Part shown: positions 16,961 to 33,306 of the stretch, piece by piece
How positions within the stretch are numbered: position 1 is the first letter of the stretch
Layout of the letters: each line of letters opens with the position of its first letter
NCBI RefSeq assembly: GCF_021391675.1
Contig: NZ_CP090095.1
Span: 2,671,501 to 2,735,500 of the forward strand
DNA from: Neorhizobium galegae
GTDB lineage: Bacteria > Pseudomonadota > Alphaproteobacteria > Rhizobiales > Rhizobiaceae
Direction: 5' to 3'
DNA: 64,000 bases
Translations under genes and position numbers: made by a program
Notes under the pieces: generated by a model
Seen by the model: only the letters and a program-made list of their open reading frames with translations
What the model was told of the DNA's origin: nothing
Database searches by the model: none

Positions 16961-17988
16961 GTCCGTCTTTTTGCGGGTCCAAGGGTTTCCCCCTCGACCG
17001 GTTCACAGGTCAGAAGAATTTGGCCGCCGGCATCGCCGCTCTCGATGCGGCGCACCAGCATGGCAGTCGCCTGCCGGCCCATCTCCTCGCGGGGGATGTC
17101 GAAAGAGGTGAACTGCATGTGGCTGCGTTCGGCGCGGATATGGCTGCCGAGCACGACGGCGGAAAAATCACCGGGAATGGACAGGCCGTGCGCGCGGGCG
17201 GCCGCCTCGACGCGCACCGCATCGGCGAGTTCGACGAAGAAGGCGGCAGTCGCACCGCTGCCTAAAAGAGCATCCAGTATCTCGTCTGCCGCGCATCCCA
17301 CCGTTTCGACATGCAGGACTAGCTCGAGACCGTTACCGAGAGCACCGTCGAAGCCCGACCACCGATCGGCAGTTGATTCCGCCGGTCCCGGCGGGCCGAT
17401 ATAGGCAAGCTTCGAATGCCCGAGCGCCCTCGCCTTCTCGACCAGCGCCCGCGTGCCGTTCGCATAGTCTCCGCCGACATAAGGAACCGGCCCGCCGGCA
17501 TCCTCGCGTCGGCCGATCGCCACGAACGGATAATCGCCGGATACCAGTCGCGTCAGCTCCACACGGTCGAATTCGCGGCCGAGCACGAGGCAGCCATCGG
17601 CGATCCTCAAGCGATTGCCATCGGCAAAGATTTTTCGATCCTGCCCGACGCCAGCCCCGGTCAAAAGCAGAAGGTCGTAATTCTGAATCTGCGCCTCTTC
17701 CTCTATGCCGAGCAGGAAGGGCGTAAAGAAGTCTGCCTGGGCGCTTGGAAAGGCCGGCTCGTAGGTGAACACGCCGAGAATGCGATTGAGCCCCTTCGCC
17801 ATCCGGCGCGCGATCGGATCGGCAACGTAACCGGTGGTGCGGATGACCTGCTGGACGCGCTCGCGGGTCTCCTGCGGAATACGCGCCAGAGCCGTCGGCG
17901 CGCCGTTCAGCACAAGCGAAACGGTCGCCTGGCTGACGCCGGCCAATTTCGCAATATCGTGCTGGGTCAAGCGCTTAGGCGCAGCCAC
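16957..17988 (-). CDS. LacI family transcriptional regulator
   Basis: 343-aa regulator. The N-terminal HTH at about 7-29 (LTQHDIAKLAGVSQATVSLV) is followed by the hinge and a periplasmic-binding-protein-like sensor domain (NRILGVFTYEPAFPSAQADF onward). The start is GTG at 17988 with GGGAGG 8 bases upstream; the nearby ATG is out of frame. It is the first gene of its operon, overlapping the oxidoreductase by four bases, so it probably autoregulates. Two tandem LacI-type operators lie 29-60 bases upstream in the interval shared with the divergent SGNH hydrolase gene. Confidence 0.92.
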   Translation of the reverse strand: MAAPKRLTQHDIAKLAGVSQATVSLVLNGAPTALARIPQETRERVQQVIRTTGYVADPIARRMAKGLNRILGVFTYEPAFPSAQADFFTPFLLGIEEEAQIQNYDLLLLTGAGVGQDRKIFADGNRLRIADGCLVLGREFDRVELTRLVSGDYPFVAIGRREDAGGPVPYVGGDYANGTRALVEKARALGHSKLAYIGPPGPAESTADRWSGFDGALGNGLELVLHVETVGCAADEILDALLGSGATAAFFVELADAVRVEAAARAHGLSIPGDFSAVVLGSHIRAERSHMQFTSFDIPREEMGRQATAMLVRRIESGDAGGQILLTCEPVEGETLGPAKRRT

Positions 17989-18080: not shown

Positions 18081-18755
18081 ATGAAGGAAAAGTTGATGAT
18101 ATTTGCGGAGCATCTGAAATCGCTTTCAATTTCCGGCATCCGCGTATTCGGCGACAGCATCACCGCCGGCTTCAACGCCTCCCGGGCCGAACTTGCTTGG
18201 CCGGCTCTGTTTGCCGGTGCGGTCGACGGCTTTCCGATCCGCAATCACGCCATCCCGGGAACGGTGTTGCAGGGGTCAAGGCTCGCGGAGGGAAAGCCGA
18301 GACCGAACAATGGAGTCGGGAGGTTTGTTGAATCACTTCTTGATCGGCCGCACGAGGACGCGATCCTGATCCTTTATGGCTACAATGACGCCCGCTACAC
18401 TGCGGCCCCCGAAACTATGTACGTTGGAGGCTTCGTGCGGGATTATAGCCGTATCCTGAAGGCGCTGATCGCCGCCGGCCATGGGCAAAGGATCGCGATC
18501 GGCAGCCCGCCCTATATTCCGGATGCCGGATTCTCGGTCGGAAGCGCGGGGTTCACCGGCCAGACCCGCCAGGGTTTCGAGCGTTATGTGGAAGCGGTCC
18601 GCGAGCTTGCCCGGCAATTCTCGGGTTTTTACGCCCCGGTCTACGAACGGATGATGGAGCACGGCGACGGACTCCTCGCCTCGCCCGACATCATCCACCC
18701 CAACGACGCCGGCCACCGGGTGATCTTCGAAGCGTTCCGGGATGCCGCACGGTGA
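18081..18755 (+). CDS. SGNH/GDSL-family hydrolase
   Basis: 224-aa esterase-type hydrolase. Block I has the nucleophile in RVFGDSITAG (S26), block III N102 in YGYNDARY, and block V D203-x-x-H206 (PDIIHPND). Gly of block II is in the HAIPGTVL region. This is a complete SGNH catalytic set, pointing to deacetylation or other ester hydrolysis, perhaps on an acylated carbohydrate. No signal peptide. An internal ATG at 18096 with AAGGAA upstream is a possible alternative start. Divergent from the LacI operon and sharing its operators, so it is likely co-regulated with the importer and oxidoreductase. Confidence 0.85.
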   Translation: MKEKLMIFAEHLKSLSISGIRVFGDSITAGFNASRAELAWPALFAGAVDGFPIRNHAIPGTVLQGSRLAEGKPRPNNGVGRFVESLLDRPHEDAILILYGYNDARYTAAPETMYVGGFVRDYSRILKALIAAGHGQRIAIGSPPYIPDAGFSVGSAGFTGQTRQGFERYVEAVRELARQFSGFYAPVYERMMEHGDGLLASPDIIHPNDAGHRVIFEAFRDAAR

Positions 18756-18821: not shown

Positions 18822-20003
18822 TCACCGTCTGACGACGAACTCGAACACTTCTTCCTTCGGCTCGACGCCGAGACCGGCACCGGTCGGCACCACATAGATG
18901 CCCTCGCCCGAAGCCATGTCGCCCTTCGTATAGGTGAGGTTCCGGTCGAAGATCGAGTGCTGGTATTCATGATAGGGCACGTTCTGCAGCGCCGACGACG
19001 CCTGCAGGCTCGCTGCCATGAAAATGCCGACACTGATCGAGGCATGCGGCATGATATTCATGTGGAAGGCCTGCGCCATCTGACCGATGCGGATGAATTC
19101 CGTAATGCCCGTATGCCCCATTTCCGGCTGCACTATGCTCATCGCCCGTTTTTCGAACCGCGGCCGGTATTCGTAGATGGTGCGCAGCTCCTCGCCGAGC
19201 GCCAGCGGCACACCGATGCCGGCCGCCACCCGCGCTTGGCCCTCGAGGTTTTCCGGCTGCACCGGCGCCTCGGCAAAATAGAGATTGTAGGGTTCCAACC
19301 GCCGGATGATGCGGATCGCCTCGCCCGCCTCGAACTTCCAGTGCAGGTCGACCATCAGGTCGATATCCGGGCCAACGGCCTCACGCAGAGCCGCCATCTC
19401 CTTGACGATATCCTCCTCGGACACCACCGCCGCGAACTTGATGCCCTTGTAACCCCTGCCGACCCAATGGACGGCCAGATCGCAACGCTCCTTCAGCGTC
19501 GCTTTCGGCAGGCCGGAGACATAGGCGCGGATCGTATCGTGCCGCCGCCCGCCGAGCAGCGTCGAGACCGGCACCCCGAGGTTCTTGCCGGTCAAATCCC
19601 AAAGCCCGATATCGACGCCGGCCAGCGCGTCGAGATAATAGCCGCCGAAGAAACCGCGCACCCGCATCAGGTCGTAGAGGTCCTCGTGGATGACCGCCGC
19701 ATCGCCCGGATCGCGGCCGATGATGACCGGGCCGAGCACGTCGTCGATGATCGCCTTGGTCGCCTCCGGCGCGACGATCCCATAACACTCGCCCCAGCCG
19801 ACCTTGCCGCTCTCGCCGGTGACCTTGATCAGCAGTGTCATGTCGGTCGAGGGATAGATGGTGCGGTTGCCCTTGCGGATCAGGTAACCGCGCGCGTTGA
19901 TCGCCTCACCTTCCTTCAAGGGCCCGAGATAGGGCACTTCGCGGGGGATGGAGATGATGAAGGTCTCGACCGAGACGATCGCATCGACGACATTTTTCGG
20001 CAT
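18822..20003 (-). CDS. Mandelate racemase/muconate lactonizing enzyme family sugar-acid dehydratase (393 aa)
   Basis: Enolase-superfamily enzyme, last gene of the IclR-locus operon. Catalytic Lys region GYKGIKF (K186/K189), metal ligands D219 (MVDLHW), E245 (FAEAPVQPE) and E271 (LGEELRT), and His base H320 in IMPHAS: a mandelate-racemase-type arrangement that normally dehydrates aldonates or aldarates. Substrate unknown; the neighbouring SDR, lactonase and 2-keto-3-deoxy-acid enzymes make an aldonate dehydratase most likely. It lies 10 bases after the DHDPS-like gene. A second, different enolase-superfamily dehydratase is encoded at 28036-29199 in the same locus. Confidence 0.88.
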   Translation of the reverse strand: MPKNVVDAIVSVETFIISIPREVPYLGPLKEGEAINARGYLIRKGNRTIYPSTDMTLLIKVTGESGKVGWGECYGIVAPEATKAIIDDVLGPVIIGRDPGDAAVIHEDLYDLMRVRGFFGGYYLDALAGVDIGLWDLTGKNLGVPVSTLLGGRRHDTIRAYVSGLPKATLKERCDLAVHWVGRGYKGIKFAAVVSEEDIVKEMAALREAVGPDIDLMVDLHWKFEAGEAIRIIRRLEPYNLYFAEAPVQPENLEGQARVAAGIGVPLALGEELRTIYEYRPRFEKRAMSIVQPEMGHTGITEFIRIGQMAQAFHMNIMPHASISVGIFMAASLQASSALQNVPYHEYQHSIFDRNLTYTKGDMASGEGIYVVPTGAGLGVEPKEEVFEFVVRR

Positions 20004-20013
20004 GGGTTTCGGC

Positions 20014-20925
20014 TCAGTTCGGCTTGTGGTTGGTATAAGGCAGATCAGCCTCTGCCAGAAGCAGCGCCAGTTCCTTGCGGTCGCCCTCGTCGAATTTCGG
20101 TCCCTTGCCGCGCACGAAGGTGTTTTTAATGACGCCGCGGCGGCGCAGCACTTCCTTGGTCATGTGCATGCGAAAAATCGCCTGGAAGTTCAGGAGCGGC
20201 AGCGAAACGTTGTAGAGTTTTCGCGTGGTCGCGACATCGCCCTTCTGCCAGGCATGGATCATCTGCGCATGAATATCGGCAAGCTCGGCGGCCGGCATCG
20301 TGCCTGCAGCACCGCGCGCCAGTTCGTCGGTGATGTAGCGCCCGCCGGCACCGCCGAAGATCGCGTCCAGCGAACCGTTGGCCGCCGCCTTGATTCGGGT
20401 CAAGTGCTGGCCGCAGGGCGCGGTCTCTTCCTTGACGTATCGGATCTCCGGCACGGCATTGGCGACAGCCGCGACCTCCTCCGGCGTCAGCCCGGCGCCA
20501 ATCGGCTTCGGCTGGTTCTGCAGCATGATCGGCACGCCGGCATTGGCCGCCACCTCCCTGAAATAGGCGGTCTGCGCAGCGATGTCGTTCCCGAGCGAAA
20601 GCGGCGCCATCACCATGGCCGCCCCTGCCCCGATCTCGGCCGCCTGCGCCACATGTTTCGCCGCAGCCTTCGGATCCGGATCGCTGGCACCGATGATGAT
20701 CGGGATGCGCCCGCCGATGCGTTCGGCCAGCAATTCCACCTGCCGCTTGCGCTCTTGCAGGCTCAGCGTATCCACCTCGCTTGCGACGCCCGGATAAACG
20801 ACGCCATCCACTTGGCTCTCCAGCGCGAAGTCGATGATCGAGAGGAAATCCGCCTCGTCGATCGACCCGTCATCGCGGAACGGCGTGGGGAGGACGGGAA
20901 AGGCTCCGGCTAGGATCTTGCTCAT
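20014..20925 (-). CDS. DHDPS/NAL-family lyase or dehydratase lacking the canonical Tyr
   Basis: 303-aa class I aldolase-family barrel. The Schiff-base Lys is in IRYVKEE (K165). At the position where most family members have YN(V)PG with the proton-relay Tyr, this protein reads MLQNQPKP, so Tyr is replaced by Gln136. The loop GVASEVDTLS stands where TT/GE-type substrate loops lie. It could be a 2-keto-3-deoxyaldonate aldolase (pyruvate-releasing) or a dehydratase for such acids; the changed residue argues for caution. ATG at 20925 overlaps the permease stop (ATGA), preferred to an upstream reading that runs into the permease gene. Confidence 0.85.
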   Translation of the reverse strand: MSKILAGAFPVLPTPFRDDGSIDEADFLSIIDFALESQVDGVVYPGVASEVDTLSLQERKRQVELLAERIGGRIPIIIGASDPDPKAAAKHVAQAAEIGAGAAMVMAPLSLGNDIAAQTAYFREVAANAGVPIMLQNQPKPIGAGLTPEEVAAVANAVPEIRYVKEETAPCGQHLTRIKAAANGSLDAIFGGAGGRYITDELARGAAGTMPAAELADIHAQMIHAWQKGDVATTRKLYNVSLPLLNFQAIFRMHMTKEVLRRRGVIKNTFVRGKGPKFDEGDRKELALLLAEADLPYTNHKPN

Positions 20926-21758
20926 TTGACTGCTCCGGCGGTGACGCCCTGAATGAAATAACGTTGGAGGAACATGAAGGCCACGACGATGGGTGCGGAT
21001 GCGATCAGCGATGCCGCCATGGCGCCGCCCCAGTCTGAATTGACCTCGTTGAGATAAGTGAGAAGCAGGCCCGGCCCGATCGTGCGCTTCTCGTCGGAGA
21101 CAATCAGCGTCATCGAATAGAGAAGGTCGTTCCAGGACCACATGAAGGAATAGAGGAACACCGTGACGATCGGCGGGATCGAGATCGGGATGACGATCGT
21201 GTGGAAGATCCTGAGATCGCTTGCCCCATCCGCCCGCGCCGCGTCGATCAGCTCGTCCGGCACCTGGGTAAAGTAGCTGTAGAGCATGTAGGTCGAGACC
21301 GGCAGCGCAAAGACGATGTAGCTCAAGATCAGCCCGAGCCGCGTGTCGAGCAGGTTCAGCTCGCTCATCAGCGGATAGATCGAGATCAGCAGCAGGCCGA
21401 ACGGAAACATCTGCGCCGACAGCATGAACAGCATCACCGGCTGGCGGCCGAAATAGCGGTATTTCGCGAAGCTGAAGCCGGCATAGAGCGCCAGCAGCGT
21501 AACCAGCGCGGCGCTGCAGGTCGAGGTGATCAGGCTGTTCATCAGGTACATCGGCAGCTTGCCGGCAGTCAGCGCCCGGATGAAATGTTCGAGGCTCGGC
21601 ATCGTCGGGAACGGCGTCGGCACGACCCGGTAGAGCTCGGCATTGGCCTTCAAGGACGAAATCACCAGCCAGTAGAGCGGGAAGAACAGGAAGAAGCCGA
21701 TCACCGCAAGCGCCGCGAAGAAGACGATCTTGGCCTGTCGGGAGGAAAGGTCGAACAT
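20922..21758 (-). CDS. Sugar ABC transporter permease (MalG-like) of the IclR locus
   Basis: 278 aa, six helices. N-terminal FFPLYWLVISSLK is typical of MalG-type subunits, and the EAA loop at about 171-195 reads IDAARADGASDLRIFHTIVI. Starts one base after the MalF-like stop and ends in a four-base overlap with the DHDPS-like gene, so import and catabolic genes are translationally linked. Confidence 0.92.
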   Translation of the reverse strand: MFDLSSRQAKIVFFAALAVIGFFLFFPLYWLVISSLKANAELYRVVPTPFPTMPSLEHFIRALTAGKLPMYLMNSLITSTCSAALVTLLALYAGFSFAKYRYFGRQPVMLFMLSAQMFPFGLLLISIYPLMSELNLLDTRLGLILSYIVFALPVSTYMLYSYFTQVPDELIDAARADGASDLRIFHTIVIPISIPPIVTVFLYSFMWSWNDLLYSMTLIVSDEKRTIGPGLLLTYLNEVNSDWGGAMAASLIASAPIVVAFMFLQRYFIQGVTAGAVK

Positions 21759-21759
21759 G

Positions 21760-22692
21760 TCAGTTTCCTTTCACCAGCATGCGCAGATAGAGGAATGCGG
21801 GCGGCAGGAGTGCCGCGACCCACAGCACGCCGACGGCGGAGGCAAAGCCGATATCCCACTGCTCGAAGGCGCGGCGATAGACCTCGACGGAGAGCACCGT
21901 CGTCGCCCGCACCGGCCCGCCGCCGGTCAGCGCATAGATCGTGTCGAACTGCTGCAGATTGCCGATCACGCCGAGAACCACGACGATCATCAGGACCGGG
22001 CGCAGGTGCGGCAGGATATGGTCGCGCAGCACCGCCCAGTTGCCGGCGCCGTCGACGCGGGCGGCATCGATCTGCTCCTTGTCGAGGTTCTGCAGGCCGG
22101 CGAGGAAGAAGGACATGAAAAGCGGGATGGACAGCCAGACCTTGGTCAGCACCACGGCGAGCATGGCGCCTTCAGGCGTCGAAAGCCAGGCCTGCGGATA
22201 GTCGATCAGGCCCAGTTCCATCAGGAAGGCGTTCAGCACGCCGTAGCGGGAATTGAAGATCCAGCCCCAGATGAAGGCGCTGACCGTCGACGGCAGCACC
22301 CAGGGCAGCAGCGACAGCGAGCGCAACACAGCGCGGCCAGCAAACGGCTGGTTCATGATCAACGCCCAGCCGAGACCGGCGACCAGCGTCCCGGTCGTCG
22401 TCAGCGCCACATAGATGGCGGTCGTCCAGAACGCCGCCCAGACATCCGGATCGGATGCGATCTTCACAAAATTCTCGAAGCCGATGAAGCGCGGCTCCAT
22501 CATCTCGACGGTGTATTCGAACAGCGACAGACCGAGGGCTGACAGGAACGGATAGAGGATGACCGCGGCAAAGGCGATCGCAGCCGGCAGCAGCAGAAGA
22601 AGCCCGATGCGGTTCTGCCCGGCTTTCAGGCCGCCCCGGTTCGCATGCGGCGAGACCGGATAGGCTCCGACATTGTTTTCGATCACGGCCAT
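21760..22692 (-). CDS. Sugar ABC transporter permease (MalF-like) of the IclR locus
   Basis: 310-aa permease from ATG at 22692, with a 30-residue cytoplasmic lead then LLLLLPAAIAFAAVILYPF and six helices. The EAA loop is IDAARVDGAGNWAVLRDHIL. The frame stays open upstream to 22848, but that stretch translates the RIME-like repeat (HPPLPLQGISPARGE) and is not coding. Partner of the MalG-like gene one base downstream. The ATPase of this importer is encoded at the other end of the operon. Confidence 0.9.
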   Translation of the reverse strand: MAVIENNVGAYPVSPHANRGGLKAGQNRIGLLLLLPAAIAFAAVILYPFLSALGLSLFEYTVEMMEPRFIGFENFVKIASDPDVWAAFWTTAIYVALTTTGTLVAGLGWALIMNQPFAGRAVLRSLSLLPWVLPSTVSAFIWGWIFNSRYGVLNAFLMELGLIDYPQAWLSTPEGAMLAVVLTKVWLSIPLFMSFFLAGLQNLDKEQIDAARVDGAGNWAVLRDHILPHLRPVLMIVVVLGVIGNLQQFDTIYALTGGGPVRATTVLSVEVYRRAFEQWDIGFASAVGVLWVAALLPPAFLYLRMLVKGN

Positions 22693-22740
22693 GAGGTCAT
22701 TTCCCGTTGATACATATGCCGCGCCGGTGCGGCATACTCC

Positions 22741-22870
22741 GATCTCCCCCCTTGCGGGGGAGATGCCCTGTAAGGGCAGAGGGGGGTGGCTCAACACACT
22801 CCCCGCTGCATTTGCGGCACCATCCCCCTCTGTCACCTCCGGTGACATCTCCCCCGCAAGGGGGGGAGAA
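22741..22870. repeat. RIME-like palindromic mosaic element
   Basis: About 130 bp with outer arms CTCCCCCCTTGCGGGGGAGA near 22744-22763 and a matching inverted copy at about 22849-22868. Inner parts (GGCAGAGGGGGGTGG near 22775-22789 against CATCCCCCTCTGTC at 22831-22844) are also complementary. Composition and arrangement match the Rhizobium-specific intergenic mosaic element type. It sits between the binding-protein gene and the MalF-like gene, where its transcript would fold into a long hairpin. Confidence 0.85.
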
Positions 22871-22883
22871 GGGTCGGGGCCAA

Positions 22884-24155
22884 CTACTCAGATTTCTTGG
22901 CCTTCTCCATGCTGGTCGTCAGCCGGGCCTGCATGGACTTGATGGCCTCATCGGCAGACTTCTGGCCGAGCAATGCACCCTGCACTTCCTCGCCGATGAT
23001 GTTGGTGAGGTCGGCAGCATTCGACCAGATGCCGACTTCGTTGCGGCGGGCGTCACCCGTCGCCGCCGACCAGTTCTTGAGGTAAGCGTCCTCGGCAACC
23101 GCCGCGCGGGCGGACTTGGTGACCGGCAGCGCGCTCATCTTCAACGGAAGGTCCGTCTGCACCTTGTCCGAAATGATGTAGGTCAGGAACTTGTCGGCCG
23201 GATCGTCTGCCTTAGCCTTGCCGCCGACGGCGAACTGCACGAGCAGATGCCCCCACTGGACGGAAACAGGCTTGTCCCCGGCCTTCAGCACGGGCGTCGG
23301 CATCGGCAGCACGTTGGCGTCGAAGGCTTGGCCTTTGCCGGAGAAATCACGCAGGAAGGTCCGGGTTTGCGGCGCGTCGAGATAGAAGGCTGAAGCGCCC
23401 TGCGCCAGCAGGCGGCGCGAGTCCGGACGATCGATTTCCGGAGCCGCCAACCGGTCCTTCATCAGGCCGACCATGAAGGTGAGCGCATCGCGGCTCTTCT
23501 GACTGTCGACGACGACCTTGCCGGCATCATCGATGATCCGGCCGCCATGCACCCAGTTCCAGACCATGAAGTCGATGAGGATCGAGCCGTTGTTCTTCGT
23601 CGCCATGGAGTACGGCACCGAGTTGGGTACCTTGTCGCGCACCGCGACCAGGGCTTTCTTGAAGTCGTCGACGGTCTTCGGAGCGTCATTGATGCCGGCC
23701 TTGGCGAGAACTTCCTTGTTGGCCACCATGCCGATCGAACCGGACAGAAGCGGCAGTGCAAGCTGCTTGCCGTTGATATTGCCCATGGCGAGCGCATCCG
23801 GCGCGAAAGCCGCTTCCAGCTTGTCCTTGCCATAGACCGTGTTCAGGTCGACGAGACTATCGAGGCTCGCGAAGGTCGGCAGCCAGCGTTCGGAAAGCTG
23901 GGCGATATCGGGCAGGGTCTTCGACCGGGCGCGCAAAAAGATGTTCTTCTGCATGTCGCCCCAGGCGAAGCCGAGCGGCTCGACCGTCAGCTTCTCGGCC
24001 TTCTGAAAATTATCCAGGACGCCCTGGACGATCGCCTTGTTGGCCTCCTCCGCGTAAGTGAAGCTCATGAAGCTGAGATCGGCTGCCTTGGCGGCACCCG
24101 AGCCGAGCGCAAGCGCGACGGCGGCGGTGCCGATCAGTCTGGTAAAGGTATTCAT
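22884..24155 (-). CDS. Extracellular solute-binding protein, family 1, of the IclR locus
   Basis: 423-aa periplasmic sugar-binding protein with a signal peptide cleaved after AKA (about residue 24). Family 1 features: NFQKAEKLTVEPLGF near the N-terminus, ARSKTLPDIAQLSERW, and a late KADDPADKFLTYIIS block. Very likely delivers the sugar oxidised by the SDR encoded next to it. The RIME-like repeat follows its stop codon directly. Confidence 0.9.
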   Translation of the reverse strand: MNTFTRLIGTAAVALALGSGAAKAADLSFMSFTYAEEANKAIVQGVLDNFQKAEKLTVEPLGFAWGDMQKNIFLRARSKTLPDIAQLSERWLPTFASLDSLVDLNTVYGKDKLEAAFAPDALAMGNINGKQLALPLLSGSIGMVANKEVLAKAGINDAPKTVDDFKKALVAVRDKVPNSVPYSMATKNNGSILIDFMVWNWVHGGRIIDDAGKVVVDSQKSRDALTFMVGLMKDRLAAPEIDRPDSRRLLAQGASAFYLDAPQTRTFLRDFSGKGQAFDANVLPMPTPVLKAGDKPVSVQWGHLLVQFAVGGKAKADDPADKFLTYIISDKVQTDLPLKMSALPVTKSARAAVAEDAYLKNWSAATGDARRNEVGIWSNAADLTNIIGEEVQGALLGQKSADEAIKSMQARLTTSMEKAKKSE

Positions 24156-24241
24156 CAGATCCTCCCGAAACGATGATGATGGAACTCTGTTTCAACTCGA
24201 AAAAGATCAAGCGGCGAGCGCCGGTGTCCGCCTGGTCCCCC

Positions 24242-25048
24242 TTAGACGACGCCTCCATCGACGATGAATGTCTGTGACGTGATGAGGCGGGAATCATCCG
24301 CCGCCAGAAACAGCGCCATGCGGGCGATATCGGGCGGCAGCAGATGCTCCTTGAGGCACTGGACCTCGAGGTATTCGGAAAACTTGCCCTGGTAGACGCG
24401 CTTGGCGCGCTCCACCTGGCGTTCGGTCAGCACCCAGCCGGGCGCGATCGAATTGACGCGGATATTGCGTGTCCCGAGTTCCCGGGCGAGCGACTTGGTC
24501 ATGCCCATGACCGCGGATTTCGCGGTCGTATAGAAGATCAGGCCCGCAGCACCGCGCATCCAGGAGATCGAGCCCATGTTGATGACCGACCCGCCGCCAG
24601 ATTCCGCCATTTCCGGCATGACGGCCTGAACCGCGAAGAACTGGTGGCGCAGATTGGTCTGGAACCGCTCGTCCCAGTATTCCGGCGTCACCTCCTCGAT
24701 CGGCATGCGATCGTCATTGCCGGCATTGTTGACGAGCACCCGGATAGGGCCGATCTCGGATCGCAGTGCCTCGATTCCTTCCTTCAGGGCGTCGATGTCG
24801 CGCACGTCCGAGGTACCATAGAACGGCTTGTTGCCGGTCTTTCGCGCGACTACCTCGGCCGTCTCGTCAGCGACATCGGCATTAAGGTCGAGGAACCCGA
24901 CTTTGCAGCCCTGGGCGCAAAAATGCTCGACCAGCGAGGCGCCGATACCCGAACCGCCGCCGGTGATCAGCACGCCCCTGCCCTTGAGGCTGGGGTATTT
25001 CGCGGCCTCCACCTGAACCTTTGCGGTGAGTTCCGGATGGATGGTCAT
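24242..25048 (-). CDS. SDR-family sugar dehydrogenase
   Basis: 268-aa classical short-chain dehydrogenase. Cofactor motif TGGGSGIG (29-36), acidic D54 after the second strand (favours NAD+), NNAG (107-110), catalytic Ser160/162 in GSISW, Y173 and K177 (YTTAK), and a C-terminal IVDGGVV. In comparable loci such enzymes oxidise an aldose at C1 to the lactone (galactose, arabinose or fucose dehydrogenases), which fits the lactonase fused to the regulator and the aldonate dehydratases. It starts in a four-base overlap with the ATPase gene. The exact sugar is not deducible. Confidence 0.88.
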
Positions 25049-26139
25049 GCAGCCTCCAGGGCAACTGGACGCGCCGAAGCCAATGACAGGCCATCGGCGG
25101 AAAAGACGTGGATCATGGCCGGATCGACATGAACGCCGATCGGTTCCCCGCGCTTGACGGCCCGGTCGCCGGAAAGCCGCACGACGACCATCTCCTCGGA
25201 GCCTTCGAGCGCCACATAGGCATAGGTGTCGCTGCCGAGATGTTCGGTCATGGTGACGGTCCCAGCGAGCGAATCCGGGGCGCCACGGCTCACCAGCTCC
25301 ACATGCTCCGGCCGGATGCCAATTTCGACAGGGGTCGAAGACAGGTCACGCGGCAGACGCACGTCTCCGCCCGGAACGGCAAAGACGCCTTCGCCTCTCC
25401 TCGCGCCGAGTTTCAGGAAGTTCATGCGCGGCGACCCGATGAAGCCCGCGACGAAGCGGTTGACCGGCTTGTTGTAGAGGTCGAGCGGCGAGCCGATCTG
25501 CTCCACCCGACCGGAATTCAGCACCACGATCTTGTCGGCCAGCGTCATCGCCTCGATCTGGTCGTGAGTGACGTAGACCATGGTCGTGCCAAGCGTATCC
25601 TTCATCCGGGCGATCTCGATGCGCATCTCGACGCGCAGCGAGGCGTCGAGGTTGGAAAGCGGCTCGTCGAACAGGAAGATCCGCGGTTCGCGCACGATGG
25701 CGCGGCCGATCGCGACGCGCTGGCGCTGGCCTCCCGAGAGCTGGCGGGGCTTGCGCTCCAGATAGGTATCGATGCGGAGTTTCTTGGCGGCCTGGGTGAC
25801 GCGGCTGTTGATTTCCGACTTGGGCGTGCCGGCAAGACGAAGCGCATAACCCATGTTCTCGGCAACCGTCATATGCGGATAGAGCGCATAGGATTGGAAG
25901 ACCATGGCAATGCCGCGCTTGGCCGGCGGCACGTCGTTCACCAGTTCGCCGTCGATCGCCATCTGGCCGGACGTGATCTCGTCGAGGCCGCAGATGAGCC
26001 GCAGGAGCGTCGATTTTCCGCAGCCCGATGGCCCGACGAAGGCGACGAATTCGCCGTCCTCGACCGTCAGGTCGATGCCCTTCAGAACTTCGGCCGAGCC
26101 GAAGGATTTGCGGATGCCTTGAAGTTCAAGCTTGGCCAT
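25045..26139 (-). CDS. Sugar ABC transporter ATP-binding protein (MalK/UgpC type) of the IclR locus
   Basis: 364 aa. Walker [10 protein letters not shown] (36-44), Q-loop [10 protein letters not shown], signature LSGGQ (134-138), Walker B IFLFDEP, switch His in YVTHD, then a TOBE regulatory domain with [11 protein letters not shown]. It is encoded apart from its permeases, ahead of the SDR and binding protein, and 42 bases after the IclR-SMP-30 fusion gene, so the whole set reads as one operon. Confidence 0.92.
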
Positions 26140-26181: not shown

Positions 26182-27906
26182 TCAGCCCGCGAACATCTGG
26201 GCTGCTTGCCCCTTGATGCCGGTATCGATGGAAAACACGCTGCCGGAGAGCGGCGCTTCGGAAAGCTGCGCTGCCGACAGCCGGATGCGGGCGGACGTCA
26301 CGAACAGGGTCTGCATGTCGGGACCGCCGAAGACGCAGCTTGTCGGGCGCGGTATCGGCAGGTTGATCACCCGCTCCACCTTGCCCTGCGGATCGTAGCG
26401 GGTAACACACCAGCCGTCCCAATGGGCGACCCAGACGAAACCTTCCGCATCGACCGTCATACCGTCCGGCTTGCCTTCGGACTCCGGCACCGTGATAAAG
26501 GTCCGGCGATTGGCGACTTCGCCGCTTTCGATATCGAAATCATAGGCATAGACCGTCTGCCGGTTTGTATCGGTAAAGTAGAAGGTGCGGTCATCCGGGC
26601 TCCAGCCAAGACCGTTCGAGACGTGGAAACCGCGATCCATCTCCCGCGACCGCCCGTCCGGGTCGATCCTCCAGAGCCGCCCCTGGTCCGGCGTCGTGTC
26701 GATCGCAAGCGTACCGGCCCAGAGCCTGCCGCGACGATCGCATTTGCCATCGTTGAAGCGATTGCCGGGGCGGTCGGATTCAGGCCGCGAGATCGTCGTG
26801 ATATCGCCGGTTGCAAGATCGATACCGCGGATCTCGCCATGCATAGCGGCGACAAAGCCGCCGCGCGAGCGAGGGATGACAAAACCGATCAGTTCCGGCA
26901 CCTGCATGGACGTATAGGTGCCCTTCACCGGATCGCCGGTATGCACGGCAGGCGCCAGGATATCGACGAAATAGAGCTTCTTGTGCTCCGGCGACCAGTG
27001 CGGGCCCTCGCCGAGAAACGTGCTTGCCGGAATGACACAGCGCACGTCGGCGCGATCGGGGCCGAGAGGACGCGGCTTGACCGCAAGCGACATGGGAAAC
27101 TCTCCAAAATTGCCGGATGTGCGGCGCGCCGCCTCGATGACGTCGCGGCCAAAGGCGTGCAGCCTGTCGACCGGCAGGCGGAAGGACGGGCCGATGATGC
27201 CGATCGCGCCAATCGGTTCGCCGCGATGGTTGAGAACCGGTGCGGCGACCGAAGAAATGCCGATATGCTGCTCGTCGACCGAGATGGCATAACCGCGCGC
27301 CTTGGTGAGATCGAGCTGGCGGCTGAGCTCTTCGGCGTTGACGATCGTGTTCGGGGTCAGCCGTTCCAGTTCGATGCCGTCGAGCAGCGCGCGGCGCTTT
27401 TCGAGCGACAGATGCGCCAGGATCGCCTTGCCGAGCCCGCTCGCATGCGGCGCGGCACGCGAACCGACGCCGTTGTTGAGCCGCAGCGGCTGCGGCACCT
27501 CCCGCTGGTCTATGTAGAGAATGCTGTCGCCATCGAGCACGCCAAGACGTATCGCCTCGCCGGTCAAGTCGCGAAGGCGCGCCAGTTCCGGCTCCGCCGC
27601 ACCGCGCAGGTCAAAATTGTCCCAGACCTTGTGGGCCCATTGAAACAGCCGCGGCGCAAGGCGGTAGACCTGGTCGCGGGTATCGAAATGTAGGAGCCGC
27701 TCATCCACCAGCGCCTGCAGCAGGCGGTGCAGCGTGCCCTTCGGCAATTGCGTCTGGTCGAGCAGTTCGGTGAAGCGCAGGCCGCGGGCTTCTGCCGCCA
27801 CGGCATCGACGATCTGGATCCCGCGCGTCAGCGCCTGGACGCCCGGCACGCCGCCCGTATCGTTGGCGACATCCTTCTCGATCGCTTCCAATTGTACCTT
27901 GGCCAT
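26182..27906 (-). CDS. IclR-family regulator fused in frame to SMP-30/gluconolactonase domain
   Basis: One uninterrupted 574-codon frame. Residues about 22-85 are the IclR winged HTH (FTELLDQTQLPKGTLHRLLQ), about 100-265 the IclR effector domain (SGLGKAILAHL, ISSVAAPVLNHRGEPIGAIG). Residue 272 begins a complete SMP-30/regucalcin propeller with the metal ligands E300 (LGEGPHW), N385 (RFNDGKCD), N431 (HVSNGLGWSP) and D481 (GKPDGMTVD). Each part is the normal length of the free-standing protein. SMP-30 enzymes hydrolyse aldonolactones, so the regulator carries an enzyme for a pathway intermediate. ATG at 27093 with GGAGAG 7 bases before it could also give the 303-aa lactonase alone. A sequencing frameshift is unlikely, since no stop exists in the linker frame. 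Confidence 0.85.
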   Translation of the reverse strand: MAKVQLEAIEKDVANDTGGVPGVQALTRGIQIVDAVAAEARGLRFTELLDQTQLPKGTLHRLLQALVDERLLHFDTRDQVYRLAPRLFQWAHKVWDNFDLRGAAEPELARLRDLTGEAIRLGVLDGDSILYIDQREVPQPLRLNNGVGSRAAPHASGLGKAILAHLSLEKRRALLDGIELERLTPNTIVNAEELSRQLDLTKARGYAISVDEQHIGISSVAAPVLNHRGEPIGAIGIIGPSFRLPVDRLHAFGRDVIEAARRTSGNFGEFPMSLAVKPRPLGPDRADVRCVIPASTFLGEGPHWSPEHKKLYFVDILAPAVHTGDPVKGTYTSMQVPELIGFVIPRSRGGFVAAMHGEIRGIDLATGDITTISRPESDRPGNRFNDGKCDRRGRLWAGTLAIDTTPDQGRLWRIDPDGRSREMDRGFHVSNGLGWSPDDRTFYFTDTNRQTVYAYDFDIESGEVANRRTFITVPESEGKPDGMTVDAEGFVWVAHWDGWCVTRYDPQGKVERVINLPIPRPTSCVFGGPDMQTLFVTSARIRLSAAQLSEAPLSGSVFSIDTGIKGQAAQMFAG

Positions 27907-27980: not shown

Positions 27981-27995
27981 TGGAACTAAGTTCCA
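27981..27995. promoter_or_regulatory. IclR-type operator in the divergent interval
   Basis: TGGAACTAAGTTCCA is a perfect inverted repeat (6-bp arms, 3-base centre) and agrees with the IclR-family consensus TGGAAATNATTTCCA. It lies 75 bases before the fusion gene and 41 before the divergent enolase-family gene, so one site can control both operons. Confidence 0.75.
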
Positions 27996-28035: not shown

Positions 28036-29199
28036 ATGGAGGATATCTTGCGCATTACCAAAGTGGACCACTGGCTGGTCCGTATGCCGTTCACCGAAGA
28101 CATTCTCTGGGGTTCGGGGCGGCGAATCGGCACGACCCGGCTGATCTGCCGAATCGAAACGGACACGGGGATCATCGGCTGGGGCGAGACGATCTCGCTG
28201 ATCGCCAACGTGCCGGCGGTGTTTGCCGATATCGTCGCGCCGCTGGCGATCGGATATCCGGTCGCGGATGCCGAGCGGTTCCACCGGCATGTGCTCGGCG
28301 CCGGCTTCTATCACCACAAGCGTGCGGCGGTGATGGCGATCTGCGCCATGGAAATGGCGATGTGGGATGCGCTCGGCAAACAGGCGAACCTGCCGCTCCA
28401 TGCCATGTGGGGCGGCCGCTGGCGCAAGGACGTCGAGGCGGCAGCCTATCTCTTCACCAACGATCCGAAAGGTCTTTCCGAACGCCTGAAGCGGTTCCTC
28501 GATCTTGGATACACCACCTTCAAGGTGAAGATCGGCTTCGATGAAAGGAGCGACATCACGCTCGCCGAAACATCCAGAAAGGTGATCGGCGACCATCCGC
28601 TACGGCTCGACGTCAACGGCGCCTGGAACCCGGCGACCGCCAAGCGCCAGCTCGAAAAACTGAAAACCTTCGATCCCGCCTATGTGGAACAGCCGTTGGA
28701 ACTCGACGACCTCGCCGGCCATGCGGCGCTGGTCGCAAACTCCTCGGTGCCGATCGCACTCGATGAAAGCGCCTATACCCTCTCCGACGTCGGTAACATC
28801 ATCCGCGCCAATGCCGCCGATGTCGTGCTCCTCGATCCGCACGAGGCCGGCGGCCTCTGGCAGACGATCAAGGCGGCTGCGATCTGCGAATCGGTCGGCA
28901 TCTCGGTAACGCTGCATTCCGGCGCCGAACTAGCGCTGTCGCAATCCGCCTATATCCACCTCGCGGCCTCACTGCCGAACATGTCGATCGCCATCGATAC
29001 CGAACGCGCCTATCTCGGCGGCGATGTCTCGCCCAATCCGCCGGTCCTGAAGGACGGTCGGTTCCAGGTGCCGGAAGGGCCTGGCCTCGGCGTCGAAGTG
29101 GACGTCGAAATGCTCGAAAAATACCGGGTGGACGGCATTGCCGGCGCCTATCTCGATGCCGAGCGCAAGGACTGGTTCCCGGTCAAACCCGCCTATTAG
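28036..29199 (+). CDS. Enolase-superfamily (MLE/MR-type) sugar-acid dehydratase (387 aa)
   Basis: First gene of the rightward operon. Catalytic K163-x-K165 (FKVKIG), metal ligands D192 (LDVNGAW), E218 (VEQPL) and D243 (LDES), and H294 in VTLHSGAE. The spacing and the DVNGAW/EQPL/DES set are closer to the muconate lactonizing subgroup than the 393-aa paralogue at 18822. With DgoK-like kinases and DgoA following, it most likely produces 2-keto-3-deoxygalactonate or a similar acid from an aldonate. Start is either ATG at 28036 (AAGGAAG 10 bases before) or TTG at 28048, which has GGAGG 5 bases before it. Upstream in-frame codons to 27727 overlap the regulator gene and are not used. Confidence 0.87.
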   Translation: MEDILRITKVDHWLVRMPFTEDILWGSGRRIGTTRLICRIETDTGIIGWGETISLIANVPAVFADIVAPLAIGYPVADAERFHRHVLGAGFYHHKRAAVMAICAMEMAMWDALGKQANLPLHAMWGGRWRKDVEAAAYLFTNDPKGLSERLKRFLDLGYTTFKVKIGFDERSDITLAETSRKVIGDHPLRLDVNGAWNPATAKRQLEKLKTFDPAYVEQPLELDDLAGHAALVANSSVPIALDESAYTLSDVGNIIRANAADVVLLDPHEAGGLWQTIKAAAICESVGISVTLHSGAELALSQSAYIHLAASLPNMSIAIDTERAYLGGDVSPNPPVLKDGRFQVPEGPGLGVEVDVEMLEKYRVDGIAGAYLDAERKDWFPVKPAY

Positions 29200-29211: not shown

Positions 29212-30135
29212 ATGTATATTGCAATCGAATGGACCTCCGCCGGCTTCCGTGCACTGCTTCTCGACGACGAAACGGTGCTCGGCGAAAAGAAGAGCGACCG
29301 CGGCACGACCAAGGTCACAGCCGGCGGTTTCGAAACCGCGCTCCGGGAGGAACTCGGCGAGTGGACCGACAAGGCGGAAAAGATTCTGTTCTCCGGCATG
29401 GTCACCAGCCGCAACGGATGGATCGAAAGCCTCTTCGCCCCAGTGCCGGCTGGACCTGCGGATTTATTGGCCCAGGCGGTTCCACATGAGATCGAAGGCC
29501 TGCCGCCGCTGATCTTCTTGCCCGGTATCGCCCAGACCAAACCTTTGCCCGACGTGATGCGCGGCGAGGAAATGGCGCTCTTCGGCCTTAAGGAAACCGA
29601 CGGCATCTTCGTGCTCCCCGGTCCGCATGCCAAATGGGTAACGATGGAAGGCGGGCGTATCACCGCCATCACCACCTACATGTCCGGTGAAATCCTCAAT
29701 CTGCTCAAAAAGGATTCGCTTGTCTCGCGCCTCATCCCGGCAACCTACGAGACGCGCCCGGAAGCCTTTCGCCGTGGCGTCCAGACAGCGCTTGAACAAG
29801 AAACCCTGCCCGGCCGCATCCTCGCCCGCGTCTTTTCAGCGCGCAGCCTGGTCTTGTTCGACCGTCTGGCGCCGGAAGAGATCGCCGACTACCTCGCCGG
29901 CATGATGATCGGCGCGGAAATCTCGGAAGCGCTTGGGCAGGACAAACCGAAGAAAATCAACATCGTCGGTCACGCCGCACTCGCCGAACGTTACAAGACG
30001 GCGCTCGAAATCTTCGGGGCGGACGCAAATCTCGTCACGCCCGACATTGCCGCCGGTTTCCGCCGGGTCGCCTCTCGACAGGGTGATACGTCACGGGCTA
30101 TCGAAGGGGCGAAAGCCGCTTCGGGAGAAATGTGA
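29212..30135 (+). CDS. Divergent 2-dehydro-3-deoxygalactonokinase paralogue (possibly inactive)
   Basis: 307 aa, homologous along its length to the DgoK family and to the next gene: GMVTSRNGW, FLPGIAQTKPLPDVMRGEE, PGPHAKWV and ARVFSARSLVLF all match. The N-terminal phosphate-binding motif of this kinase family, normally DWGTSSLR or DWGSTNLR, reads EWTSAGFR (E6-W7-T8). The Asp that binds metal-ATP is Glu and the following Gly is Thr. Catalysis is therefore doubtful; it could be a regulatory partner of the second copy or use a different substrate. Overlaps or abuts the next gene (stop at 30135, next ATG 30138). Confidence 0.8.
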   Translation: MYIAIEWTSAGFRALLLDDETVLGEKKSDRGTTKVTAGGFETALREELGEWTDKAEKILFSGMVTSRNGWIESLFAPVPAGPADLLAQAVPHEIEGLPPLIFLPGIAQTKPLPDVMRGEEMALFGLKETDGIFVLPGPHAKWVTMEGGRITAITTYMSGEILNLLKKDSLVSRLIPATYETRPEAFRRGVQTALEQETLPGRILARVFSARSLVLFDRLAPEEIADYLAGMMIGAEISEALGQDKPKKINIVGHAALAERYKTALEIFGADANLVTPDIAAGFRRVASRQGDTSRAIEGAKAASGEM

Positions 30136-30137
30136 CC

Positions 30138-31067
30138 ATGCCCAAACCCACCTCGATCATCCTCGATTGGGGAACGAGCTCGCTGCGCGCCATGCTGGTT
30201 TCGGAAACAGGCGAAACGCTCGATACCCGCGATACGTCGAGCGGCGGCATCCAGTTCGTCAAGAACGGCGCCTTCGAGCAGGCGTTGATGGAAACGGTGG
30301 GCGAATGGTTTTCGGCACATGGCCCCCTGCCCGTCCTGGCAAGCGGCATGATCACCAGCCGCAACGGCTGGGTCGAAGTACCCTATGTGGATACGCCCGG
30401 CGGGATTGCCGAGCTTGCCGCCGGCACGCGCAAACTCGCTCTTCGGAACGGCGCCGTCATTACCTTCCTGCCCGGCATGCGCGATCCGGCCGCAAAACCC
30501 TTTCCGGATGTGATGCGCGGCGAGGAAACCCAGATCGTCGGTTACGGCCTCGACCGTGACCGCACCCTGGTCCTGCCCGGCACCCACAGCAAATGGGCAC
30601 GGATCAAGGACAACCGCATCGACGGTTTCCAGACTTATGCGACCGGCGAGGTATTTTCGCTTCTGACCAAACATTCGTTCATCGCCAAGGCTATCGAGCC
30701 GCAGCCGGGCACCGAGCCGGACTGGCAGAGCTTCGATCGCGGGACGGAATTTGCAGCGAGCGATTCGGCCGCCGCCAACGCCTTTCTCTCGGCGATATTC
30801 AGCGCCCGCACCGGCATTCTCGACGGCAAATTGAAGCCCGAGGATATCCTCGATTACGTCTCCGGCCTCGTCATCGGCTCGGAATTCCGCCAGGCCCGCG
30901 CTGCCGGCTGGTTCAAGAACGGCGATACGATCGGTATCGTCGGCAACAACGTGCTCAACAGCCGCTACGGCCGGATCGCACCACTGTTCGGCCTGACGGT
31001 CGAACCCGCTCCGGAAAACGCCGCGAAACGCGGCATCATGCTGATCGCGGCCGAAGCCGCGCAATAA
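30138..31067 (+). CDS. dgoK: 2-dehydro-3-deoxygalactonokinase
   Basis: Phosphorylates 2-dehydro-3-deoxy-D-galactonate with ATP (EC 2.7.1.58). 309 aa with an intact ASKHA-type phosphate motif ILDWGTSSLRA (D10, G12, T13), SGMITSRNGW, LPGMRDPAAKPFPDVMRGEE, PGTHSKWA and SAIFSARTG. GGGAGA lies 9 bases before the ATG; a GTG six bases upstream overlaps the preceding stop. Tandem with a degenerate copy and followed by the aldolase, so the three genes form the phosphorylative branch of the locus. Confidence 0.9.
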   Translation: MPKPTSIILDWGTSSLRAMLVSETGETLDTRDTSSGGIQFVKNGAFEQALMETVGEWFSAHGPLPVLASGMITSRNGWVEVPYVDTPGGIAELAAGTRKLALRNGAVITFLPGMRDPAAKPFPDVMRGEETQIVGYGLDRDRTLVLPGTHSKWARIKDNRIDGFQTYATGEVFSLLTKHSFIAKAIEPQPGTEPDWQSFDRGTEFAASDSAAANAFLSAIFSARTGILDGKLKPEDILDYVSGLVIGSEFRQARAAGWFKNGDTIGIVGNNVLNSRYGRIAPLFGLTVEPAPENAAKRGIMLIAAEAAQ

Positions 31068-31079
31068 AGGAGTTTCGAG

Positions 31080-31700
31080 ATGACCTTCGAAGAGGCGCTC
31101 AAGGCATGCAATCTCGTCGCCATCCTGCGCGGTATCAAGCCGGAGGAGGCTGAAAGCGTCGGCGAGGTGCTGGTCGAGGCCGGCTGGCGGATCATCGAAG
31201 TCCCGCTGAACTCCCCCGACCCGCTGAAGAGCATCGAAAAGCTGGTCAAACGTTTCGGAGACCAGGCATTGATCGGGGCCGGCACCGTACTGACCCCGGC
31301 CCAGGTCGCCGATGTCGCCGCGACAGGCGCCAAGGTGATCATCTCGCCGAATGCGAATGTCGAAGTGATCAAGGCCAGCCGCGCGGCAGGCATGGTGAGC
31401 CTGCCCGGTGTCGCAACCCCGACGGAAGCCTTCGCGGCGATCGAGGCCGGCGCCAGCGGCATCAAGGCGTTTCCGGCGGAAGCGATCCCGCCCTATGTCA
31501 TCAAGGCGTGGAAGGCGGTACTGCCGAAGGATATCCCGGTACTCGCCGTCGGCGGTGTCACGCCCGAGAACATGGCTGTCTACGCGCAGGCGGGCACAGC
31601 CGGTTTCGGCATCGGCTCCTCCCTTTACAAGCCGGGTGCCGACATCGCCTCCATCGGGCAAAAGGCGAGAGAATTCATGGACGCGATGCGCGCCCTCTGA
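31080..31700 (+). CDS. dgoA: 2-dehydro-3-deoxy-6-phosphogalactonate aldolase
   Basis: Splits KDPGal to pyruvate and glyceraldehyde 3-phosphate (EC 4.1.2.21). 206 aa KDPG/KHG-aldolase-type barrel: LVAILRGIKPEEA at the N-terminus, catalytic Glu in IIEVPLNSPDP (E40), GAGTVLTPAQV, SLPGVATPTEA and Schiff-base Lys in IKAFPAE (K129). VPLNSPDP rather than VTLRTP favours the galactonate over the gluconate enzyme. AAGGAG lies before the ATG, 12 bases after dgoK. End of the rightward operon. Confidence 0.92.
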   Translation: MTFEEALKACNLVAILRGIKPEEAESVGEVLVEAGWRIIEVPLNSPDPLKSIEKLVKRFGDQALIGAGTVLTPAQVADVAATGAKVIISPNANVEVIKASRAAGMVSLPGVATPTEAFAAIEAGASGIKAFPAEAIPPYVIKAWKAVLPKDIPVLAVGGVTPENMAVYAQAGTAGFGIGSSLYKPGADIASIGQKAREFMDAMRAL

Positions 31701-32454: not shown

Positions 32455-33306
32455 TCACTTGGCCTTCAGGACCGAGACCGCTAGTTCGCTGTTATGGACG
32501 TATTCATTGGCGTCCGGCTGGCGTTGGACGAGCAGGATGAACAGCAAGTCCGTCAGCATCAGCTGCGCATCGCGCGCCGTGATGGAGGACGAGCGCACCC
32601 GCTCCTCGTCCGCGACCGTATAAAGTCGGATATCCGCCGCCTGCATCAGCGGATTGCCGTTGAGACCGGTAATGGCGATCACCGTCGCGCCGCGCTGGCG
32701 CGCCAGTTCGGCGATCCTCAGTGTCTCGAAACTGGTGCCGGAATAGGAAAGTGCCAGCAGCACGTCCTGGCTGTTGAGCGTCGAGACATTCGCCATCTGC
32801 ACATGGCTGTCGCTGTCATGCAGCACGTTGCGCCCGAGCTTCATCAGCTTGTAGGAAAAATCGCGGGCGACCAGCGACGATGCCCCGACGCCGGCCATAT
32901 GGATGCGTCGCGCATCGTTGAGAGCCGTCAGGGCCCGCTCGATCTCCTGCTCGTTGTTGACCGCAAGCGTCTGCTGCATGGACAGCATCTTGCTGCCGAT
33001 CAGTTTTTGCAGGATCGTCAGGTAACTGTCGCCGACCTCGATCGAGCCGTGGATCATCCCCGGCGGCGCATGCCATTCCTGCGCCTTCGCCTCGCTGACG
33101 GCGAGTTTCAGCTCCTGGTATCCGGCAAAACCCAGCTTCTGGCTGAATTTTACGACGCTCGACTGGCTGCGCCCCGCCTCGGCCGCAAGCGCTGCCGAGG
33201 AAAGCCGCAGCATCTGGTCCGGATTGTCGAGGATGAACTGGCCGATCTCCCGGTCTGCCGGTGCCATATCCTCGAGCTGCGCGTTGATCTTCTTTAAGAC
33301 TGACAT
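32455..33306 (-). CDS. RpiR family transcriptional regulator (MurR-like)
   Basis: 283 aa. N-terminal HTH_6 domain about 1-77 (AALAAEAGRSQSSVVKFSQK is the recognition region) and a SIS phosphosugar-binding domain about 125-265 (MAGVGASSLVARDFSYKL, LALSYSGTSFETL). SIS regulators respond to phosphosugars such as MurNAc-6-P in MurR. It is divergent from the murA-like gene and lies beside a MurQ locus, so MurNAc-6-P or GlcNAc-6-P is a fair guess for the ligand. ATG at 33306 is preceded by AAGGA; the frame runs open upstream to 33510, but that part is the promoter region. Confidence 0.88.
   Translation of the reverse strand: MSVLKKINAQLEDMAPADREIGQFILDNPDQMLRLSSAALAAEAGRSQSSVVKFSQKLGFAGYQELKLAVSEAKAQEWHAPPGMIHGSIEVGDSYLTILQKLIGSKMLSMQQTLAVNNEQEIERALTALNDARRIHMAGVGASSLVARDFSYKLMKLGRNVLHDSDSHVQMANVSTLNSQDVLLALSYSGTSFETLRIAELARQRGATVIAITGLNGNPLMQAADIRLYTVADEERVRSSSITARDAQLMLTDLLFILLVQRQPDANEYVHNSELAVSVLKAK

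Follow-up and report, generated by a model that had tools for sequence, protein, structure and literature searches.

The window analyzed here is the whole stretch of 64,000 nucleotides (64 kb) from Neorhizobium galegae contig NZ_CP090095.1, and it encodes an IclR regulator joined in frame to a propeller of the SMP-30/gluconolactonase family. The product of this gene is likely to be bifunctional: an autoregulated IclR-type regulator whose chain also contains the lactonase for the pathway under its control. Coordinates given below are positions within the window, and residue numbers are those of its fusion protein unless stated otherwise. The frame from 27906 to 26182 on the minus strand runs through 574 codons free of stops, and Pfam recognizes three domains in the translation, each above its cut-off: HTH_IclR at residues 25-75 (47.0 bits; cut-off 22), IclR_C at 93-264 (136.8 bits; cut-off 24), and SGL at 298-540. 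According to PMC9795676, the metal ligands of Caulobacter xylonolactonase are Glu18, Asn146, and Asp196; with residues counted along the alignment, these fall on E300, N431, and D481 of the window propeller, and Asn101 of the Caulobacter enzyme falls on N385. The preliminary description of this DNA had proposed a complete IclR regulator joined in frame to an SMP-30 propeller with all of its metal ligands, and translation, Pfam, and alignment bear this out, with the predicted DNA-binding and catalytic parts on a single chain. The frame remains open further upstream, to an ATG at 28596 that would give 804 aa, but both the homologues and the divergent gene favor a start at 27906.

An IclR box had also been proposed at 27981, and an operator-like palindrome does begin at that position. 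The sequence TGGAACNNNGTTCCA lies upstream of the fusion in 24 of 25 core genes of clade A, the window's clade (window included), with a single mismatch in the remaining member, L049, and the genome holds just one exact copy, at 27981-27995. One of the eight one-mismatch copies in the genome, at 24180-24194, falls within the same operon, and a site at this place before the gene for the extracellular solute-binding protein (SBP) is kept in 18 of 23 named loci, where it carries one mismatch in 16 cases and two mismatches in the other 2. This pattern fits a local autoregulator, with the palindrome as its putative operator, and the second site suggests that the transporter genes are under separate control. 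When clade C was searched for palindromes, GTATCAATATATGATAC was found before the DHDPS gene in Agrobacterium fabrum and L086, a variant in L087, and a different palindrome in L185. At this stringency the search found none in Sinorhizobium meliloti, L088, or L089.

Taken as a working mechanism, the IclR half would bind both palindromes and control both promoters, probably as a repressor, until an intermediate of the pathway relieved this control. Transcription would then raise the fusion protein along with the dehydrogenase, the dehydratases, and the transporter, and the propeller would hydrolyze the lactone made by the short-chain dehydrogenase/reductase (SDR) enzyme, with an internal start in the window's clade probably also giving some free lactonase. 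Cross-talk between the IclR half and the propeller, of which a self-extinguishing loop is one form, is a tentative addition to this mechanism, and on the sequence data we consider it rather unlikely.

Operon and neighboring genes

The sugar dehydrogenase and aldonate dehydratases that the preliminary description had placed around the fusion were found, as an SDR gene and two MR/MLE genes (Table 1). The fusion is the only regulator encoded between 18822 and 29199; beyond this interval there is a LacI-type gene (16957-17970) on one side and an RpiR-type gene (32455-33306) on the other. It is also the only SGL protein within the window, the five other SGL proteins of the genome being located elsewhere, so that the simplest source of the lactonase step is the fusion itself. 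The best NCBIfam match of the SDR protein is D-xylose 1-dehydrogenase, at 294 bits and under the cut-off of 400 for that family, and its relatives in the PDB include 4lvu, 7wwx, and a sulfoquinovose 1-dehydrogenase. Naming the sugar of the pathway from the SDR, MR/MLE, and DHDPS homologues was tried and abandoned, as the homologues disagree.

Table 1. Positions of the fusion gene, its parts, the operator-like sites, and the neighboring genes within the window
Feature	Positions	Strand	Basis
Fusion gene, 574 aa: IclR regulator (residues 1-268) and SMP-30/gluconolactonase propeller (residues about 284-574)	26182-27906	minus	translation, Pfam
IclR half: HTH_IclR 25-75 and IclR_C 93-264	27103-27906	minus	Pfam
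SMP-30 lactonase half from Met272; E300, N431, D481, and N385 present; possible free 303-aa product	26182-27093	minus	Pfam, alignment
Candidate internal translation start: GGAGAG (27105-27100) and ATG (27093-27091, Met272)	27091-27105	minus	
Operator-like palindrome TGGAACTAAGTTCCA between fusion and divergent MR/MLE gene; sole exact TGGAACNNNGTTCCA copy of the genome	27981-27995		
Second operator-like site, one mismatch, just upstream of the SBP gene	24180-24194		
ABC transporter ATPase, UgpC type	25045-26139	minus	
SDR, aldose 1-dehydrogenase-like	24242-25048	minus	NCBIfam, PDB relatives
SBP	22884-24155	minus	
Two ABC permeases: 21760-22848 (or from 22692) and 20922-21758	20922-22848	minus	Pfam BPD_transp_1
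DHDPS-family enzyme (keto-deoxy-aldonate aldolase or dehydratase type)	20014-20931	minus	
MR/MLE sugar-acid dehydratase-like; family of PDB 2nql, 4dn1, 2ppg, 4h1z	18822-20003	minus	
Divergent MR/MLE sugar-acid dehydratase-like gene	28036-29199	plus	
Two tandem DGOK kinases and KDPGal-type aldolase, downstream of the divergent MR/MLE gene	29212-31700	plus	

Genomes were searched for the same fusion and for conserved neighbors, a check that the preliminary description had advised, and the fusion recurred with its operon conserved in the 23 named loci. The ugpC gene follows the fusion in all 23, the SDR and SBP genes do so in 22, and the permeases, the DHDPS-family gene, and the second MR/MLE gene come after the fusion in 21, with the first MR/MLE gene divergent from it in 22. 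Several other loci hold the same gene set in a different order, often with a divergent DGOK kinase, the usual alternative being DHDPS, MR/MLE, SBP, permeases, ugpC, a NAD-dependent epimerase-family gene, fusion, and SDR. The MR/MLE protein of the A. fabrum operon (L216 5605-6771) is that of PDB 2nql and 4dn1, identical to 2nql over 388 residues, and that of the S. meliloti operon (L217 12164-13333) is nearly identical to 4h1z and 2ppg; the molecule names in these entries state no specific function. The A. fabrum C58 operon, as that of the window, is flanked by a GDSL-type hydrolase gene (L216 2978-3625). The two DGOK kinase genes of the window (29212-31067) overlap by 4 bp, and the second copy, present in 8 of the 23 named loci, looks like a lineage-specific addition. 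At L186 (G539:C20:176000-194000), a clade A and a clade B fusion operon converge within 18 kb of a single genome. An apparent SDR-SMP30 fusion in L094 was discarded, since gene calling resolved it into two genes in different frames with a 7-bp overlap.

Distribution and origin of the fusion

Genomes were drawn at the level of the family, the order, and the phylum, with the window's own genome counted each time and some genomes shared between draws. Matches over both halves were found in at least 9 of 297 family genomes. At E <= 1e-85, the order draw had them in 16 of 397 genomes and the phylum draw in 3 of 398. Both IclR_C and SGL were present in each of the 120 protein matches listed, of 651, and a genome scan yielded 48 loci. 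The 23 full-length fusions among these loci (L037-L059) come from Neorhizobium, Rhizobium, Devosia, Mesorhizobium, Microvirga, and other genera. Plasmid matches came from 141 records, and in 133 of these a single place covers 80% or more of the query. Agrobacterium fabrum C58 has the fusion ATU_RS26100 on its At plasmid, annotated as SMP-30 only, and a plasmid of Sinorhizobium meliloti carries a fusion of 569 aa with HTH_IclR, IclR_C, SGL, and intact ligands, annotated only as a helix-turn-helix protein. Intact fusions at 41-99% identity occur in Alphaproteobacteria and in some Betaproteobacteria, and by this sequence comparison the fusion is old and stable.

In the tree of IclR domains, one branch separates 41 fused domains from 51 of the 52 stand-alone domains. 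The SGL tree was compared with shuffled labels, which gave about 31-34 label changes, and a second computation left out twelve likely fragments and eight rows on long branches, two of which are fused members that have lost ligands. We read these tree patterns as one main origin of the IclR-SMP30 fusion, which they do not prove. A search with the IclR half only, under a length limit that excludes full fusions, returned 27 proteins; the close ones that were read (P0122-P0125 and P0127-P0130) are fragments or frameshifted copies of the fusion, and the nearest genuine stand-alone relative, P0139, has 39% identity.

The strongest alternative to an autoregulator that carries its pathway's lactonase is that the fusion serves only to co-express two independent functions, with no cross-talk between them and with inactive propellers retained passively. 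The halves do match separate known domains, and a Salinarimonas sp. record (P0124 and P0150) shows a break in the frame just past the junction, due either to natural fission or to a sequencing error, while both parts remain encoded on contigs of equal length (368270 bases). The internal start of clade A would free the lactonase from the regulator, and in L091-L093 the propeller evolves faster than IclR_C, as described below. Against this, the fusion has been maintained across divergence to about 30% identity, propellers without ligands are still recognizable by Pfam, and close stand-alone relatives of the IclR half are nearly absent. We give a pure co-expression device somewhat less than even chances.

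Lost metal ligands and the candidate internal start

Not all members of the family have an intact metal site. Counted without de-replication by species, 8 of 69 individually checked fused members have lost at least one of the ligands E300, N431, and D481. Seven of these are among the 62 aligned fused members: L085 and L106 carry D481G; L091, L092, and L093 have lost all three ligands (the start of L092 is uncertain, as no start codon precedes its aligned N terminus); and L111 and L117 have likewise lost all three, with Lys in place of N431 in both. Of the seven members checked later, one, L248, has lost ligands, with E changed to D and D to A; L123, L124, L214, L215, and both the A. fabrum and the S. 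meliloti protein are intact. The genome G474 encodes four different IclR-SMP30 fusions (L102, L116, L117, and L248), two intact and two with lost ligands. Because such members have kept the fusion without the usual catalytic site, self-extinction cannot be what it does throughout the family. The patterns of loss suggest, and do not prove, that the propeller has a role besides catalysis, and the propellers concerned are possible conversions from enzyme to sensor.

It may also be that the propeller is a signal sensor throughout, with lactone binding altering DNA binding, so that members with a living site are self-terminating and those without ligands are pure sensors. The members with lost ligands keep both domains in frame, whereas stand-alone SGL proteins keep all three ligands in 75 of 75 rows (23 protein records; 12 of these possibly fusion pieces), a set partly collected by similarity to the fusion and so biased toward intact ligands. 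In six control genomes, picked for holding fusions with lost ligands, the family profile gave 52 matches; the 44 examined yielded 42 rows (8 fused and 34 stand-alone) and two weak matches without rows, the remaining eight matches being mostly weak, and 31 of 31 scoreable stand-alone proteins keep the three ligands. The cluster of L111 includes a separate intact SGL protein (L179 15473-16384; row L226), and a metallo-beta-lactamase-family gene lies beside L085 among the divergent catabolic genes of an adjoining operon, but a separate lactonase was not identified at the other annotated loci with lost ligands. In L111 and L117 the propeller is better conserved than IclR_C (36% versus 26%). The reverse pattern to ligand loss is seen in P0177, P0195, and P0201, which have deletions inside IclR_C and intact lactonase residues, and BzdR offers a precedent (PMC3602430). 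On the other side, the propellers of L091-L093 diverge faster than their canonical-looking IclR_C domains (31-37% versus 47-62%), as expected under relaxed constraint, and loss is uncommon, with 53 further fused rows of alignment A2 intact, all but a few of them nearer to the window. The site in the window is itself intact and gives no direct evidence of sensing. On balance, we hold sensing by the propeller to be a doubtful explanation. A reading in which one family spans the whole path from enzyme to sensor, from self-terminating bifunctional members, whose lactonase would bind and destroy its signal (one clade adding free lactonase through an internal start), to ligand-less members that would only sense a sugar lactone, is quite unlikely on present evidence.

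A further alternative confines itself to the window's clade, in which the lactonase might come mostly from the internal start while the fused form acts essentially as a regulator. The preliminary description had pointed to a Shine-Dalgarno sequence and start codon at 27093; both are present, with 8 nt between GGAG and ATG, and the proposal is moderately supported for the clade but not supported for the family. Met272 is found in all 25 core clade A genes, and the Gly268 codon that forms the Shine-Dalgarno sequence is GGA in 22 of 25 of them, despite GGA being their rarest Gly codon: at the other 38 all-Gly sites it accounts for 42 of 950 codons (4.4%), with 24% at the highest single site. Among twelve diverse representatives, 10 have GGA at Gly268. 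This codon has changed 3 times on the tree (versus a mean of 6.31), and, unlike Gly268, the remaining slow-changing Gly sites are fixed for the favored GGC. Met272 also has the best mean Shine-Dalgarno energy of seven internal Met positions. The rare-codon signature fits selection on an internal ribosome-binding site, and a second product in the window's clade has moderate support from these comparisons. Against a predominant internal start, the Shine-Dalgarno strength is moderate, and synonymous conservation in sliding windows has no peak at this site: with ranks starting at zero, the four scoreable windows stand at 46-85 among 284 for the core set and at 172-217 among 313 for the representative set. 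Of the 62 aligned fused members, 41 have a junction Met, most of them belonging to the window's clade; the other 21 have a different residue or a gap instead, and any activity in these must come from the fused protein. The junction Met was accordingly rejected as a family-wide mark of two products. All seven aligned members with lost ligands are among these 21, and the shared loss may reflect kinship only. That the lactonase of this clade arises mainly from the internal start is a rather unlikely option.

The idea that two separate genes were joined by sequencing or assembly error can be set aside, as nothing was found in its favor and the same intact frame is present in dozens of independent assemblies at 41-99% identity.

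Returning to the reading of the window gene as a bifunctional autoregulator that carries its pathway's lactonase, several points weigh against it. IclR proteins can act as activators. The Cys and two Ser that line the pocket of glyoxylate/pyruvate-type IclR proteins are replaced by Ser219, Gly236, and Ile238 in an alignment to E. coli IclR, so that the effector cannot be named; these pocket residues are no requirement for the IclR family as a whole. The genome's eight one-mismatch sites compare with five (up to one mismatch) for a reversed control pattern, which is near background, and the exact palindrome was not found before the fusion in the more distant wider-clade members L053, L054, L101, and L102. 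The GDSL-type hydrolase gene (18081-18755) flanks the operon, and a lactonase of another family may supply the step instead. The branch between fused and stand-alone IclR domains has a weak support of 58, and the SGL tree requires 10 label changes when all 116 rows are used, or 6 once the long branches and likely fragments are dropped. As for the internal start, 17 of 106 fourfold sites are at least as slow to change as Gly268, and the Shine-Dalgarno energy of -6.7 kcal/mol is ordinary, being equaled at 42 of 565 in-frame positions.

Known systems and implications

The window protein shares HTH_IclR, IclR_C, and a palindromic operator-like site with Thermotoga IclR (1MKM), E. coli IclR, AllR, and KdgR, whereas the solved IclR-family members compared are regulators with no propeller, and the glyoxylate-type Cys and Ser are replaced in the window protein. 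Caulobacter xylonolactonase (7PLB) and human SMP30 (3G4E) are stand-alone enzymes, in contrast to the window propeller, which forms the C-terminal half of a putative DNA-binding regulator. Trigger enzymes such as PutA, BirA, and NadR combine a metabolic enzyme and a transcription regulator in one polypeptide. At the sequence level the window fusion has the same one-chain layout, but its folds and predicted reaction differ from theirs. The nearest studied parallel found is BzdR, in which, according to PMC3602430, a DNA-binding domain is fused to a shikimate-kinase-like effector domain whose enzyme activity was lost in evolution. The likeness lies in an enzyme fold joined to a DNA-binding regulator; in BzdR the enzyme-like domain is the effector domain and is inactive, whereas in the window a full IclR regulator precedes a propeller with an intact site and all of its ligands, and the site has been lost in some relatives only.

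Automatic annotations already name the two halves: the JGI name 'sugar lactone lactonase YvrE/DNA-binding IclR family transcriptional regulator' and the NCBI name 'SMP-30/gluconolactonase/LRE family protein' are attached to the same protein family, as names only. A description or functional study of an IclR-SMP30 fusion was not found among the papers listed by the literature searches, most subscription journals lying outside their reach. What is new is the loss of metal ligands in some fused members.

A regulator fused to the enzyme that removes its likely signal would be a compact feedback device, here in a family found in various soil and plant-associated bacteria. Versions with and without the metal site seem to coexist in this family, and even in one genome, so that the question of conversion from enzyme to sensor is directly testable. 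The plasmid-borne relatives in A. fabrum C58 and S. meliloti, together with the MR/MLE crystal structures available from both operons, provide a ready starting point for such work.
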